DNA of 64,000 nt. It comes from Lachnospiraceae bacterium. Lineage in GTDB: Bacteria; Bacillota; Clostridia; Lachnospirales; Lachnospiraceae. The notes beneath the pieces were generated by a model, which was not told where the DNA came from, searched no databases, and saw only the letters and a program-made list of their open reading frames with translations. How positions within the stretch are numbered: the first letter of the stretch is position 1; each line of letters starts with the position of its first letter. The stretch is taken from NCBI GenBank assembly GCA_017619615.1, contig JAFZRY010000027.1, positions 18,971 to 82,970 on the forward strand, written 5' to 3'. Positions 44,385 to 51,205 of this stretch are shown piece after piece. Made by a program: the position numbers and the translations under genes.

Positions 44385-44485
44385 TAGATAGTTTTTTGAG
44401 ATTTTACGGAAAATCCGCCCCGCCCGCGCAACCGGACCCGCCGTTTTTCCGCTGTAGAGGGTGAGGAGGTAAGGAGGCCCCCGCC

Positions 44486-45046
44486 TTGGATGATGACAAG
44501 ATCACAGAACTCTATCTGTCCCGGGACGAATCCGCCATCCGCGAAACGGCGGCCAGATACGGCGCGCGCCTGCGGCAGATCGCGTACGCCATCCTGCAGG
44601 ACCGCGGGGCCGCGGAGGAGTGCGAGAACGACACGTACCGCGAGGCCTGGGAGCGCATCCCGCCGAACGAGCCGCGAGGCTATCTGTTCGAATACCTGGG
44701 ACGCATCATCCGGCACCTGGCGATCGACGAGTGCCGGCGGGCCGCCGCGCAGAAGCGTCGAGCCGTATACTGCGAACTGACGCAGGAAATGGCGGAGTGC
44801 CTGCCGGGCCCGGAGGACGTAGAGAGCCGCCTGGAAGCGCAGGAGCTCCGGCGGATCCTGTCGGACTTCCTGGCCGGCTGCCCGCAGGAACAGCGGGCCG
44901 TCTTCCTGCGGCGCTACTGGTATTTCGACAGCATCGCGGAGATCAGCCGCCTCTTCGGATACCGCGAGGAAAAGGTAAAAAGCATCCTGTTCCGGATGCG
45001 GAAAGCGCTGAAAAAGCGGCTGGAGAAAGAAGGGTATACGGTATGA
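44486..45046 (+). CDS. ECF-type RNA polymerase sigma factor
   Basis: 186 residues, a sigma-70 family protein with region 2 (about 5-85) and region 4 (about 125-180) only. Region 2 includes YAILQDRGAAEECENDTYREAWERI and region 4 LAGCPQEQRAVFLRRYWYFDSIAEISRLFGYREEKVKSIL, the -35-binding HTH. The start is a TTG with AAGGAGG eight bases before it; no in-frame ATG is near. The stop overlaps the start of a membrane-anchored serpin by four bases, in the position where ECF operons usually encode the anti-sigma factor. Confidence 0.92.
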   Translation: MDDDKITELYLSRDESAIRETAARYGARLRQIAYAILQDRGAAEECENDTYREAWERIPPNEPRGYLFEYLGRIIRHLAIDECRRAAAQKRRAVYCELTQEMAECLPGPEDVESRLEAQELRRILSDFLAGCPQEQRAVFLRRYWYFDSIAEISRLFGYREEKVKSILFRMRKALKKRLEKEGYTV

Positions 45047-46419
45047 AGTCGGATGTTTTTTTGGACGATATCATCGGCGGCACGGAGGAAAAATGGATCC
45101 GCGAAGCGGAAAACATCGAGGGGAGCGGGATAAAGAAGAAACGGCGGATCCGGAGGATCGGCCGTGCTGTTGCTGCGGCCGCATGCCTAGGCCTGATCAT
45201 TTTTGCCGTCTCCGGCCTTTTGGGAAAGCGGGAGCCGGTGCAGGCGGCTGATCTTCTGGAGAATTATACGGCCCGTCCGGTGGAAAAGAAAGAGCCGGAC
45301 GATGCCTTCGTCCGGGCCGGCTATGACTGGGCCGTCCGTCTGTTTCAGGAGACATACCGGCAGGAAAAGGATCAGAAGACGCTTCTGGTCTCCCCCCTGT
45401 CCGTCATGACCGCCCTGGCCATGACCGCGAACGGCGCCGGCGGGCAGACGCTGCAGGAGATGGAGCAGGTGCTGGGCAGCGGATCGCTGACGCTTGCGGA
45501 TCTGAACGCCTATCTGCACACCTATCTGCAGACTCTGCCTTCTTCGGACCGCGTGAAATTTTCTTTTGCCAACGGCATCTGGTTCAATGACCGCGGAGGC
45601 TTCAAGGCAGAAAAGGCGTTCCTGCAGCAGAACGCGGATTATTATGATGCCGCTATCCGGAAAGCGCCGTTTAACGAAGCCACGGTGCAGGAGATCAATC
45701 AGTGGGTCGCCCTGCATACGGATGACATGATCCCGGAACTGCTGAACAAACTGGAGGACGGCACTCAGATGGTTCTGGTGAATGCCCTGGCCTTCAGCGC
45801 GGATTGGCGGGAGCCGTTTGTGAACGACGGAGAAGAATATTGGGGTCCGTTTACCAATCTGGACGGAAGCACGGTCAGAACGCCGGTCATGTCCGGCGAA
45901 GTGGACTTCTATCTGGAAGATGACACCTGCATCGGATTTGAAAAGCCTTATATCGGAGACACCTATCGTTTCGTAGCGCTGCTGCCGAAAGAGGAAAAAG
46001 ATTTTGCGGGATTCATTGACGGCCTGAATAGGGAAAAACTGGAGTCGCTTATGCAAAACGCCGCGATCGAGAAGGTCAGAATCTCGCTGCCGAAATTCAG
46101 TTATGATTACACCGTCAATCTGCCGGACGTTCTGAAAACGCTGGGCATCCGAGACGCTTTCGATCCGTCCCGGGCGGATCTCTCCGGAATCAGCCGCTCG
46201 GAATCACTGTATATCAGCAAAGTCCTGCACAAAACTCATATCGACCTGGATTCCGCGGGCACGCGGGCCGCCGCCGCAACGGAGGTCGAGGCAATGTACA
46301 GCGGGATGCCGCCCGAGCCTCGGAAAGTCTCACTGGACAGACCGTTCGTCTACATGATCGTAGATACGGAGACAGGCCTGCCCGTGTTTATCGGGACGGT
46401 GACGGAGTTTTCGGAATAA
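45043..46419 (+). CDS. Membrane-anchored serpin with anti-sigma-like N-terminus
   Basis: 458 residues. Residues 1-39 are a short cytoplasmic piece (FLDDIIGGTEEKWIREAENI, then a run of KKKRRIRRIGR); 40-60 are a membrane helix. The D(D)xxIxEAE-plus-basic-plus-AACL design is what clostridial ECF-linked anti-sigma proteins have. The extracellular part (about 68-458) is a full serpin: TLLVSPLSVMTALAMTANGA (helix B), VNALAFSADW (shutter), and a hinge GTRAAAATE at 406-414, with small residues at P12-P9 as in inhibitory serpins, and DRPFVYMI after the loop. By counting, P1-P1' would be about Ser-Gly. It overlaps the sigma stop, so the two are coupled. Confidence 0.85.
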   Translation: MKSDVFLDDIIGGTEEKWIREAENIEGSGIKKKRRIRRIGRAVAAAACLGLIIFAVSGLLGKREPVQAADLLENYTARPVEKKEPDDAFVRAGYDWAVRLFQETYRQEKDQKTLLVSPLSVMTALAMTANGAGGQTLQEMEQVLGSGSLTLADLNAYLHTYLQTLPSSDRVKFSFANGIWFNDRGGFKAEKAFLQQNADYYDAAIRKAPFNEATVQEINQWVALHTDDMIPELLNKLEDGTQMVLVNALAFSADWREPFVNDGEEYWGPFTNLDGSTVRTPVMSGEVDFYLEDDTCIGFEKPYIGDTYRFVALLPKEEKDFAGFIDGLNREKLESLMQNAAIEKVRISLPKFSYDYTVNLPDVLKTLGIRDAFDPSRADLSGISRSESLYISKVLHKTHIDLDSAGTRAAAATEVEAMYSGMPPEPRKVSLDRPFVYMIVDTETGLPVFIGTVTEFSE

Positions 46420-46440: not shown

Positions 46441-46525
46441 GTTGGGGCGCCCACTGGGCGCCCGTTTGATTACGGAAAATGAACCGTCTCTCTATATATT
46501 CAGGGCGGCCAATGGCCGCCCCTAC
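46441..46525. repeat. Two family A palindromes
   Basis: GGGGCGCCC/GGGCGCCCG (46444-46463) and GGGCGGCCA/TGGCCGCCCCTAC (46503-46525), between the serpin gene and the converging dehydrogenase gene. They may end both transcripts. Confidence 0.7.
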
Positions 46526-48436: not shown

Positions 48437-48465
48437 TCTGACAAAGGAACCGTCCCCCTGTCAGA
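48437..48465. repeat. TCTGACAAAGGAACCGTCC... hairpin (family B)
   Basis: TCTGACA pairs with TGTCAGA; the core is the reverse of that at 28665. It lies in the 5' leader of the serpin mRNA just before its ribosome site and may affect translation. Confidence 0.7.
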
Positions 48466-48480
48466 AAAAGGAGGTACATC

Positions 48481-49830
48481 ATGAACGCGATGAAGAAAAT
48501 GACTGCCCTGCTGCTGGCGGCGGCAATGTTGCTGGGGCTGGCTGCGTGCGGAGCGAATACGCAGCAGACGACGGAGGCGACCCCGTCCGCGACGGAGGCG
48601 CCGACGAACGCCCCTACAGAAGCCCCCACCCAGGGAACGCTTCCCAAAGCCCAGGCTGCCGACCTGCTGGAAGGTTATACCGCGCGCCCGGTGGAGGATA
48701 AACAGGCGGACGACGCTTTCATCAAAGCTAGTTATGAATGGGCCGCCGGGCTTTTCAAGCAGGTCTACCGCACGGAAACGGAGCAGAAGACCCTGCTGGT
48801 CTCCCCGCTGTCCGTCGTGACCGCCCTGGCCATGACCGCGAACGGCGGCGGCGGCAACACGCTGAAGGAGATGGAGCAGGTCCTGGGCAGCGGCTCCCTG
48901 AGCATGGACGATCTGAACGCCTATCTGCACACCTATCTGAACAGCCTGCCGTCTTCGGAGCGCGCGAAATTCAGTTTCGCCAATGCCATCTGGTTCAAAG
49001 ATATGGAAACCTTCTGCGTGAAAGAAGATTTCCTGCAGAAGGACACGGACTATTACGACGCCGCCATCCGCAAAGCGCCGTTTGACGATTCCACGGTCCG
49101 CGAAATCAACCAGTGGGTCGACCAGCACACGGACGGCATGATCCCCAAACTGCTGGAACAGCTGAACGAGGGCGACCGGATGATCCTGATCAACGCCCTG
49201 GTCTTCGACGCCAAATGGGCGGTCCCGTTTTACGAATCGGGCGAAGATTATAAACAGCCCTTTACCGGTCTGGACGGCAAACAATCGAGCGCCAGCATGA
49301 TGTTCGGAGAAGAATACAGCTATCTGGAAGACGATACCTGCACCGGGTTCACCAAATCCTACGCGAACGACACTTACCGCTTCGTGGCGCTGCTGCCGAA
49401 GGATGGTAAGGATTTCGAAGGCTTCATCGACGGCCTGACCGGCGAGCAGCTGGCCGCGCTGCTGAGCGGCGCTGCCGAGGAGCGGACCCTCATCATGGTG
49501 CCGAAATTCAGTTATGATTACGAAGTCAGCCTGCCGGAAGCGCTGAGCGCGATGGGCATGCGCGACTGCTTTGATCCCTACCGCGCGGATTTCTCCGGGA
49601 TCAGCGATACCTCGCTGTACATCAGCGACGTGCTGCACAAGACCCACATTGACCTGGACTCCGAAGGCACCCGGGCTGCCGCAGTGACCGCCGTCATGGT
49701 GGCGGAATCCGCCATGCCGATGGAACCGCCTCACGAAGTGTATCTGGACCGTCCGTTCGTCTATATGATTGTGGACACTGCGACGAACCTGCCCGTTTTT
49801 ATGGGGACCGTGACCGGGTTCGGTGAATAA
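48481..49830 (+). CDS. Serpin lipoprotein (first of pair)
   Basis: 449 residues. Signal peptide and lipobox (LLAAAMLLGLAAC) give a lipid-anchored surface protein after Cys about 23, followed by a Thr/Ala/Pro linker to about 60. Then the conserved QAADLLEGYTARPVE block that the membrane serpin also has, and a complete serpin domain: TLLVSPLSVVTALAMTANGG, INALVFDAKW (shutter) and hinge GTRAAAVT from 396, with DRPFVYMI after the reactive loop. By counting from the hinge, P1-P1' is about Ser-Ala. A surface serine-protease inhibitor is the likely role, as known for serpins of gut Firmicutes. AAAGGAGG precedes the ATG. Confidence 0.9.
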   Translation: MNAMKKMTALLLAAAMLLGLAACGANTQQTTEATPSATEAPTNAPTEAPTQGTLPKAQAADLLEGYTARPVEDKQADDAFIKASYEWAAGLFKQVYRTETEQKTLLVSPLSVVTALAMTANGGGGNTLKEMEQVLGSGSLSMDDLNAYLHTYLNSLPSSERAKFSFANAIWFKDMETFCVKEDFLQKDTDYYDAAIRKAPFDDSTVREINQWVDQHTDGMIPKLLEQLNEGDRMILINALVFDAKWAVPFYESGEDYKQPFTGLDGKQSSASMMFGEEYSYLEDDTCTGFTKSYANDTYRFVALLPKDGKDFEGFIDGLTGEQLAALLSGAAEERTLIMVPKFSYDYEVSLPEALSAMGMRDCFDPYRADFSGISDTSLYISDVLHKTHIDLDSEGTRAAAVTAVMVAESAMPMEPPHEVYLDRPFVYMIVDTATNLPVFMGTVTGFGE

Positions 49831-49846
49831 GGACAGGAGAGAAATC

Positions 49847-51205
49847 ATGTCGAACTTCAGAATAATAATTGCTTTGCTGCTGACAGCCGCGATGCTGCTG
49901 GCCCTGACCGCCTGCGGGGAAAACACGCAGCAGACGACGGCGCAGGCTCCGCCCGCATCGGAAGTTCCTGAGACAGCCGCCCCCACGGAGCCCCCCACCC
50001 AGGGCGCCCTCCCGGTCGCCCAGGCCGCCGACCTGCTGGAAAACTATACCGCCCGCCCGATGGAAGATAAAAAGGCGGACGACGCCTTCATTCAGGCCGG
50101 ATTCGAATGGTCGGCGGAACTGTTTAAGCAGGTCTACCGCCTTGAACCGAAGCAGAAGACCCTCCTGGTCTCCCCGCTCTCTGTCGTGACCGCCCTGGCC
50201 ATGACCGCGAACGGCGCCGGCGGCAACACGCTGAAAGAAATGGAACAGGTCCTGGGCAGCGGCTCCTTGAGCCTGGACGACCTGAACGCGTACCTGCACA
50301 CGTACCTGAACAGCCTGCCTTCCTCGGAATCCGCGAAGTTCAGCTTTGCCGACGGCATCTGGTTCAAAGAGGAGGACGGCTTTCTCGTCAAAGAGGATTT
50401 CCTCCAGAAAAACACGGACCACTTCGATGCCGCCATCCGCAAAGCGCCGTTTGACGAGTCCACGCTCCGGGAGATCAACCAGTGGGTGGCCCAGCACACG
50501 GACGACATGATCCCCAAAATGCTGGATGAACTGGGCCCGGACACCGTCATGGTGCTGATCAACGCCTTGGTTTTCGACGCCAAATGGGATACACAGTTCC
50601 GCGAGACGGGCGAGACTACCCTGTGCCCGTTTACCTGTCTCGACGGCACGGAAGTGGAGACCGCCGTCATGTACGGGGAAGAATACAGCTACCTGGAAGA
50701 CGAGACCTGCACCGGTTTCACGAAATCCTACGAGGGCGACACCTATCGCTTTGTGGCGCTCCTGCCGAAGGATGAGACGGACTTTGCGGGCTTTGTCGAC
50801 AGGCTGACAGGAGAGCAGTTGGCGTCCCTGATGGCGAATGCCGCGGAAGAGCGCACCCTCATCATGCTGCCGAAGTTCAGTTATGATTACAAGATCAGTC
50901 TGCCGGGCGTGCTGGGGGCGATGGGTATGCATGACTGTTTTGACGACGTGCGCGCGGATTTCTCCGGGATCAGCGACACCCTGCTGTACATCAGCGACGT
51001 CCTGCACAAGACGCATATCGACCTGGATTCCGAGGGCACCCGGGCCGCGGCCGCGACAGTCGTGGAGATGGCTAAGTACACGGCGTTTCTGCCGGAGTCG
51101 GAGCCGCATAAGGTCTACCTGGACCGCCCGTTCGTGTACATGATCGTGGACACGGCGACAAATCTGCCCGTGTTCATGGGCACTGTGACCGGGTTCGGGG
51201 AATAA
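49847..51205 (+). CDS. Serpin lipoprotein (second of pair)
   Basis: 452 residues from ATG 49847 (ACAGGAGAG before it); a GTG at 49823 would overlap the previous stop. Signal peptide IIIALLLTAAMLLALTAC gives a lipid anchor. The serpin domain is very similar to its neighbour along its length, including DNA blocks, so this is a tandem duplication. The reactive loop is different: hinge GTRAAAAT at 397, then VVEMAKYTAFLPESEP, with P1-P1' by counting about Tyr-Thr. The divergent loop in otherwise conserved paralogues suggests a different protease target. The two genes are 16 bases apart. Confidence 0.9.
   Translation: MSNFRIIIALLLTAAMLLALTACGENTQQTTAQAPPASEVPETAAPTEPPTQGALPVAQAADLLENYTARPMEDKKADDAFIQAGFEWSAELFKQVYRLEPKQKTLLVSPLSVVTALAMTANGAGGNTLKEMEQVLGSGSLSLDDLNAYLHTYLNSLPSSESAKFSFADGIWFKEEDGFLVKEDFLQKNTDHFDAAIRKAPFDESTLREINQWVAQHTDDMIPKMLDELGPDTVMVLINALVFDAKWDTQFRETGETTLCPFTCLDGTEVETAVMYGEEYSYLEDETCTGFTKSYEGDTYRFVALLPKDETDFAGFVDRLTGEQLASLMANAAEERTLIMLPKFSYDYKISLPGVLGAMGMHDCFDDVRADFSGISDTLLYISDVLHKTHIDLDSEGTRAAAATVVEMAKYTAFLPESEPHKVYLDRPFVYMIVDTATNLPVFMGTVTGFGE

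Follow-up and report, generated by a model that had tools for sequence, protein, structure and literature searches.

An ECF sigma factor and a putative membrane anti-sigma factor whose outer part is a serpin are encoded by overlapping genes in the window, by which we mean the whole 64,000-nucleotide stretch of Lachnospiraceae DNA analyzed here. As an architecture, a serpin in the anti-sigma position is strongly supported, about as firmly as sequence allows, and the best reading of the locus is that it belongs to a group of ECF sigma/anti-sigma systems whose ectodomains are exchangeable and include the serpin. The locus exposes a modular family in which one short cytoplasmic module bears 25 ectodomain clusters (delimited by BLAST) in addition to the serpin, and most of the ectodomain representatives scanned are without a clear Pfam domain. 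Little is known of bacterial serpins and their regulation, according to the portions of two reports available to us (PMC6718151, PMC10090351). No description of a sigma-serpin unit was found among the titles and abstract beginnings listed by searches of an open-access library (a scope outside which subscription papers mostly fall). An earlier sequence-only reading of this DNA knew of no such signaling unit.

An ECF sigma factor gene overlaps a membrane serpin gene

The sigma gene (44486..45046, + strand) encodes 186 amino acids from a TTG start, which is backed by an upstream AAGGAGG and by TTGGAT or TTGGAA in several relatives. Its product has sigma regions 2 and 4 only, as ECF factors do: it scored 68.8 bits against NCBIfam sigma70-ECF (TIGR02937, cut-off 42.9) and matched Pfam Sigma70_r2 above the family cut-off (E = 2.2e-6), while Sigma70_r4_2 scored 25.4, just below its cut-off of 25.7. 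The gene for the membrane serpin (45043..46419, + strand; 458 aa, ATG start) lies where anti-sigma genes are expected, directly downstream of the sigma gene and usually overlapping it. The two ORFs share the bases ATGA (45043-45046; offset -4), which confirms the four-base overlap of sigma stop and serpin start previously noticed. A terminator-like hairpin is present 3' of the serpin gene (46445..46463, + strand); the region contains 9 sites of this kind, where shuffled sequence would give 4.6.

The membrane serpin begins with a putative cytoplasmic sigma-binding module (residues 1-41, 45043..45165, + strand), followed by a single transmembrane helix (residues 42-60, 45166..45222, +; mean hydropathy 2.48), a juxtamembrane segment (residues 61-94, 45223..45324, +) and the serpin domain (residues 95-454, 45325..46404, +; Pfam E = 1.9e-90), in which the hinge GTRAAAAT (residues 406-413) opens a reactive center loop that runs to the RPF motif (residues 406-434, 46258..46344, +). 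The sequence-only reading was right to describe a single membrane helix and a whole serpin whose hinge is of inhibitory type. A 39-residue cytoplasmic piece was also described there, and a short piece of this kind is indeed present, although its length is closer to 41 residues given the hydropathy helix at 42-60. The Pfam match covers positions 5-368 of the 370 in the Serpin profile (PF00079, MEROPS I4), that is, a full domain, and the loop is full length, with 28 residues from P15 to RPF (27-31 in 79 of 83 parsed unlinked serpins). The closest solved structure is tengpin (2pee, E = 3.8e-97), the start of whose chain aligns with residues 66-90 of the juxtamembrane segment. An AlphaFold2 model (mean pLDDT 85.3, pTM 0.81; input alignment of 74 sequences) placed the serpin body mostly above a pLDDT of 90 and predicted one helix at residues 30-59, together with two short low-confidence helices at 6-11 and 15-24; loop residues 409-422 had a pLDDT below 50 and formed no strand.

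Sigma-serpin pairs recur within and beyond the genus

We assessed recurrence in 16 congeneric Lachnospiraceae genomes (MAGs, source genome included), all 16 of which contain serpins. Close serpins occur in related Lachnospiraceae MAGs, some of them isolates from goat omasum and from water buffalo rumen. The source genome (1.98 Mb assembly, 34 contigs, 91% complete) has six serpins, of which another besides the window's membrane serpin, encoded on contig 12, is likewise preceded by an ECF sigma gene with an identical overlap. In a first count, 30 of 85 distinct serpins in the genus were encoded immediately 3' of a related ECF sigma gene, the genes overlapping in 30/30 cases (24 at -4, 6 at -8) and a hydrophobic helix being present near the N terminus in 30/30 linked serpins. 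This count had merged two near-identical serpins, and the pair table accordingly holds 31 genus pairs (L124 being the named copy of G012:C44).

The genus sigma search returned 118 matches at E ≤ 1e-20 (108 at E ≤ 1.5e-44, the other 10 at E > 1e-30), and matches under 120 bits were left unpaired. Among the 106 genus sigmas read, 31 had a serpin partner, 73 another partner and two no readable partner. A search of ECF neighborhoods for fused serpins, as the sequence-only reading had suggested, thus revealed 31 pairs, distributed over 13 of the 16 genomes (no pair is tabulated for G008, G010 and G013). With other genera included, the table comprises 121 sigmas; their 119 partners, 44 of them serpins and 75 of other kinds, have start offsets of -4 in 94 cases, -8 in 17 and, depending on the chosen start, -11 to +89 in eight. 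Two of the 75 (the second copy of L053, and L244) end at contig ends with their ectodomains unseen; they are included in the HMM training described below and fall outside the 73 partners that were clustered.

In other Lachnospiraceae genera, a strong related ECF sigma was directly upstream in 12 of 28 loci (12 genera), which is not a family-wide rate because these 28 are the best matches to a linked-serpin profile, drawn from 138 matching genomes among 397 searched; in a further locus (L170) only a sigma fragment was upstream. A second family set, the 28 best plain Pfam Serpin matches, had an ECF gene directly upstream in L133 only. Class-wide, 82 of 391 genomes matched, and four of the 29 loci fetched had an ECF gene directly upstream, these four lying in three further clostridial families. 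Two of them (L284, L289) have related ECF sigmas upstream of the serpin, and in the other two (L300, L302) the ECF is of a different type and the cytoplasmic part is longer. A search of genome contigs with the single protein found no relative; the alignment-based search found nine loci. One locus alone could reflect accidental adjacency of a serpin and a sigma gene, and it is the recurrence in the genus, among best-matching loci of other genera, across the class and beside other ECF types that leads us to reject this explanation, which we regard as extremely improbable.

Two loci from these searches differ in composition. At L133:700-2850, beside a different ECF type, a membrane serpin is followed by BspA-type leucine-rich repeats. 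At L283:1495-2937, in another clostridial family, module, helix and serpin are present, and no ECF sigma was found upstream.

The cytoplasmic module is shared with non-serpin partners

An HMM was trained on the N-terminal 30 residues of the 75 non-serpin partners and on no other sequence. It scored above 5 bits in 44/44 serpin partners and above 10 bits in 41 of them (20.0 bits in the window protein), and above 5 bits in 0/90 unlinked serpins, a set cleared of duplicate loci (maximum 4.3). Background rates were low, with 6 of 880 shuffled sequences above 5 bits (one above 10) and 12 of 859 other ORF starts, the top four of which are copies of non-serpin partners. A lipobox near an M was found in 68 of the 90 unlinked serpins, and a lipobox-like match within the first 90 residues in 2 of the 44 linked ones.

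Named families matched the partner N-termini weakly. The commonest was NCBIfam 'anti-sigma factor' NF052375, found below cut-off in 40 of 119 partners (best E = 2.6e-5); its match in the window protein is weak (E = 0.027) and covers residues 31-80, overlapping the membrane helix. Weak matches to CU044_5270 were present in 31/119 partners and to Pfam DUF4179 in 10/119 (best E = 0.0038). Among 60 unlinked serpins, NF052375 was not one of the 25 families shown, which go down to two members, and CU044_5270 was found in four. Membership of a known anti-sigma family was rejected, as no match to a curated family exceeded its cut-off.

Clustering of 73 non-serpin partners gave 25 ectodomain clusters, as separated by BLAST (remote kinship between clusters is possible). 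Pfam cut-offs were reached by 2 of 20 cluster representatives, one with VWA and YfbK_C and one with DUF4367 just above the cut-off. In L218:504-2504 (- strand), the N-terminal module is joined to a VWA/YfbK ectodomain, which may be a further type of sensor.

Exchange of ectodomains on the module

Among sigmas with a non-serpin partner, L190 and L191 come nearest to the window sigma, at 77% identity. The L191 partner is 51% identical to the window protein over residues 1-68 (E = 2e-13) and the L190 partner 39% identical over residues 1-90 (E = 2e-13), and neither has significant homology to it beyond the module and helix, indicating that the ectodomain was swapped. Trees were built by quick or fasttree methods; the sigma tree drew long-branch warnings, and 6 of the 90 unlinked serpins were omitted from the serpin tree as too short. 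These trees gave 15 serpin/other changes along the sigma tree, at least six forced by starred branches, and 16 linked/unlinked changes along the serpin tree, at least 11 forced. For L124 (G012), sigma and module are nearest L088-L093, while among linked pairs the serpin is nearest L001/L067/L068, and it clusters with L043, a secreted serpin from its own genome. Across the linked serpins (n = 44), sigma distance correlated with module distance at rho 0.55 (partial 0.47) and with ectodomain distance at rho 0.38 (partial 0.21). Neither partial value was reached in any of 1,000 permutations, and the stronger correlation of sigma with module persisted after thinning to 34, although a sigma-module distance correlation can reflect shared descent.

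The cytoplasmic piece of the window protein thus has homologs at the N-termini of 75 non-serpin partners, and module divergence tracks the sigma factor better than the serpin does; together these results strongly support the earlier proposal of a serpin in the anti-sigma position. By the same comparisons, the serpin and other ectodomains are repeatedly exchanged on a common, putatively sigma-binding module. These data also bear on the view that the serpin is an effector only, with the module as its anchor, the sigma factor co-expressing a tethered inhibitor and sigma activity being controlled otherwise. Serpins are inhibitors, and in other genera they also adjoin such operons without fusion: a secreted serpin is found 31 bases after a sigma/partner pair in L152 (order sigma, partner, serpin) and precedes such a pair in L135 (serpin, sigma, partner). 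An anchor alone, however, would need neither a module held in common with 75 partners of other kinds nor its co-divergence with sigma, and most free serpins of the fetched loci carry the lipobox noted above near their start. An effector-only role is, in our judgment, quite unlikely.

The ectodomain of the window protein is under purifying selection (omega 0.28), and positive selection on the membrane serpin is not supported. Relative to G006 (L277), dS of the membrane serpin is 0.41-0.62 compared with 0.04-0.22 for nine neighboring genes, and dN is raised too, a combination that fits allele replacement. Relative to G004 (L278), the corresponding values are 0.53-0.69 and 0.28-0.65, and the serpin is not clearly out of line.

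Comparison with known systems

Like the window pair, SigV-RsiV (Bacillus subtilis, Enterococcus faecalis and C. difficile) consists of an ECF sigma factor and a single-pass partner with a short cytoplasmic piece. In the portions of the reports available, RsiV has its helix at 37-59 and binds and inhibits lysozyme (PMC4183432, PMC5014341), and it is cut by signal peptidase and then by RasP, freeing sigmaV (PMC6066255). On this partial view of the sources, its ectodomain, which binds and inhibits a hostile enzyme, is the closest working analog of the window serpin. The ectodomains themselves differ, being DUF4163/DUF3298 for lysozyme in RsiV and a serpin here, and no DUF4179, DUF4163 or DUF3298 match was found in the window protein.

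Clostridium thermocellum offers two further comparisons, the ECF-like sigma24C and SigI, which is not an ECF factor and whose partner RsgI has an N-terminal domain of its own. The available text pairs sigma24C with a membrane anti-sigma factor, Rsi24C, that contains a GH5-like module (PMC3990059), a sugar enzyme fold as opposed to the protease inhibitor here, and proposes that SigI-RsgI pairs sense different extracellular substrates (PMC3990059, PMC12203970). Pfam gave no match to the RsgI N-terminal domain in the window protein or in the 20 (of 25) ectodomain representatives, and none of RsgI type is among the 25 families shown for the 119 partner N-termini. As for class I anti-sigma domains (ASD-I), which are cytoplasmic helical bundles with or without a zinc motif in the text available (PMC7406223), the window protein has a piece of only about 41 residues, with no Hx3Cx2C motif and no Pfam match there. 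As far as these partial sources go, Rsi24C-GH5 and RsgI are the nearest precedents in architecture and RsiV the nearest works-like precedent. By analogy, the window system would work like RsiV; it is not a shown member of the RsiV, RsgI or ASD-I families.

Tengpin and the siropins have the serpin fold found here; in the part of the report available (PMC6718151), neither an ECF partner nor a cytoplasmic module is named for them, and Clotm-3 appears as a membrane serpin of C. thermocellum. A serpin phylogeny, seen in part, includes some membrane-anchored prokaryotic serpins, and its main text is without 'sigma' words (PMC8233489).

Reactive loop and juxtamembrane segment

The hinge was parsed in 40 of the 44 linked serpins (an early match displaces approximately six of the parses). 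Residues P12-P10 are mostly small and the loop is variable from P7 onward. The classical GTRAAA is present in 4 of the 40, including the window serpin, and in the others V/I is frequent at P14 and Y/F at P9. Some non-inhibitory serpins bind hormone-like ligands, and the scaffold might likewise be a ligand-binding ectodomain (for a peptide, glycan or hormone-like ligand) in which the loop is not bait. The 36 parsed linked serpins without GTRAAA, often with the P9 and P14 residues just given, speak for such a sensor, and the other ectodomains on the same module have no known ligand. Against it stand the classical hinge of the window serpin, the small P12-P10 residues of most parsed linked serpins, a loop that is full length and variable, and the closeness of the window serpin to tengpin, an inhibitor of human neutrophil elastase that acts through a covalent complex, as described in the available part of the report (PMC6718151). 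On balance we consider a non-protease sensor unlikely, and protease sensing the best single reading of the mechanism, if an unproven one.

The same partial source gives the N-terminal extension of tengpin as essential to stabilize the metastable native state (PMC6718151). By homology, the segment between the membrane and the serpin body could therefore feel the state of the serpin in the window's group; a tengpin-like juxtamembrane segment is not visible in more distant linked serpins. An AxA motif follows the helix in 18 of 44 linked serpins (7.4 expected) and in 6 of 73 other partners (5.4 expected, not enriched). Because this region is common to secreted serpins and the motif is unenriched in other partners, it is weak evidence for signal-peptidase cleavage.

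Candidate promoter and regulon

A candidate autoregulatory ECF-type promoter, GCAAC-N12-TTTTCCGCTRTAG, lies at 44428..44457 (+ strand), upstream of the sigma gene. The window has no other match to this pattern (chance expectation 0.09), and the promoter is kept in four genomes (G000, G006, G004 and G011). In G011 it is kept though the partner ectodomain differs (L191), and it is not visible upstream of L190, the other swapped relative. In the source genome, the sole site with zero mismatches is this one, and elsewhere there is one match with three mismatches compared with two control matches. The sequence-only reading had envisaged release of the sigma factor as inducing protective genes, a suggestion that gains no support from this count. 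On the same count, the two secreted serpins encoded downstream (from 48481 and 49823) are unsupported as members of the regulon. A conserved block precedes 48481, but its AAC...CG pair is, by eye, spaced differently from that of the sigma promoter.

Proposed mechanism

We think it reasonably likely that the genes form a two-gene ECF sigma/membrane anti-sigma operon in which the serpin is the outer sensing domain and a protease triggers release. A one-shot protease sensor is plausible and, by analogy, fits the RsiV precedent. In such a mechanism, residues 1-41 would hold the sigma factor at the membrane until the reactive loop comes under attack from a protease outside the cell. Insertion of the loop, or formation of a complex, might then alter the juxtamembrane segment, and the altered segment would open the stalk or helix to site-1 cleavage and subsequently to an M50 site-2 protease; an M50 protease is encoded in the source genome (E = 2.0e-60). 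The freed sigma factor would transcribe at least its own operon, and the cell would consequently make more of the membrane-bound inhibitor. One molecule could thus be both an inhibitor and a single-use reporter, as RsiV is for lysozyme.

More tentatively, and with the odds somewhat against it, clostridia may employ serpins as single-use protease receptors, in which cutting of the bait loop and the ensuing stressed-to-relaxed transition, passed on through the juxtamembrane segment (the guard of the metastable state in tengpin), free an ECF sigma factor. Paralogous pairs, each with its own loop, would then make up a panel indicating the proteases around the cell, renewed as secreted serpins of the same genome are taken up as ectodomains. 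If serpins sense as well as inhibit, an irreversible protein trap becomes a signaling switch, and which proteases these bacteria respond to is a question open to reporter testing.

Genomic context

Two further serpins with lipoprotein-type signals are encoded downstream of the pair (48481..49830 and 49823..51205, both + strand), each 63% identical to the membrane serpin. The first is not sigma-linked and is a possible ectodomain donor lineage. The gene order DegV-sigma-serpin-2HADH-PIG-L-serpin-serpin-DUF805-rSAM-thioesterase is kept in G006 (from FtsH on) and in G004, and in G012 the sigma and membrane serpin genes are absent between DegV and 2HADH. Apart from its membrane serpin, the G006 locus is near-identical to the window, and the adjoining sigma is 98% identical.

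The sequence GACAAAGGAACCGTCCCCCTGTC occurs at window positions 48440-48462 and in 54 copies across the 1.98-Mb genome (≤2 mismatches; control 0). Several copies form close inverted pairs, REPIN-like, and one lies within the leader of the secreted serpin gene at 48481.
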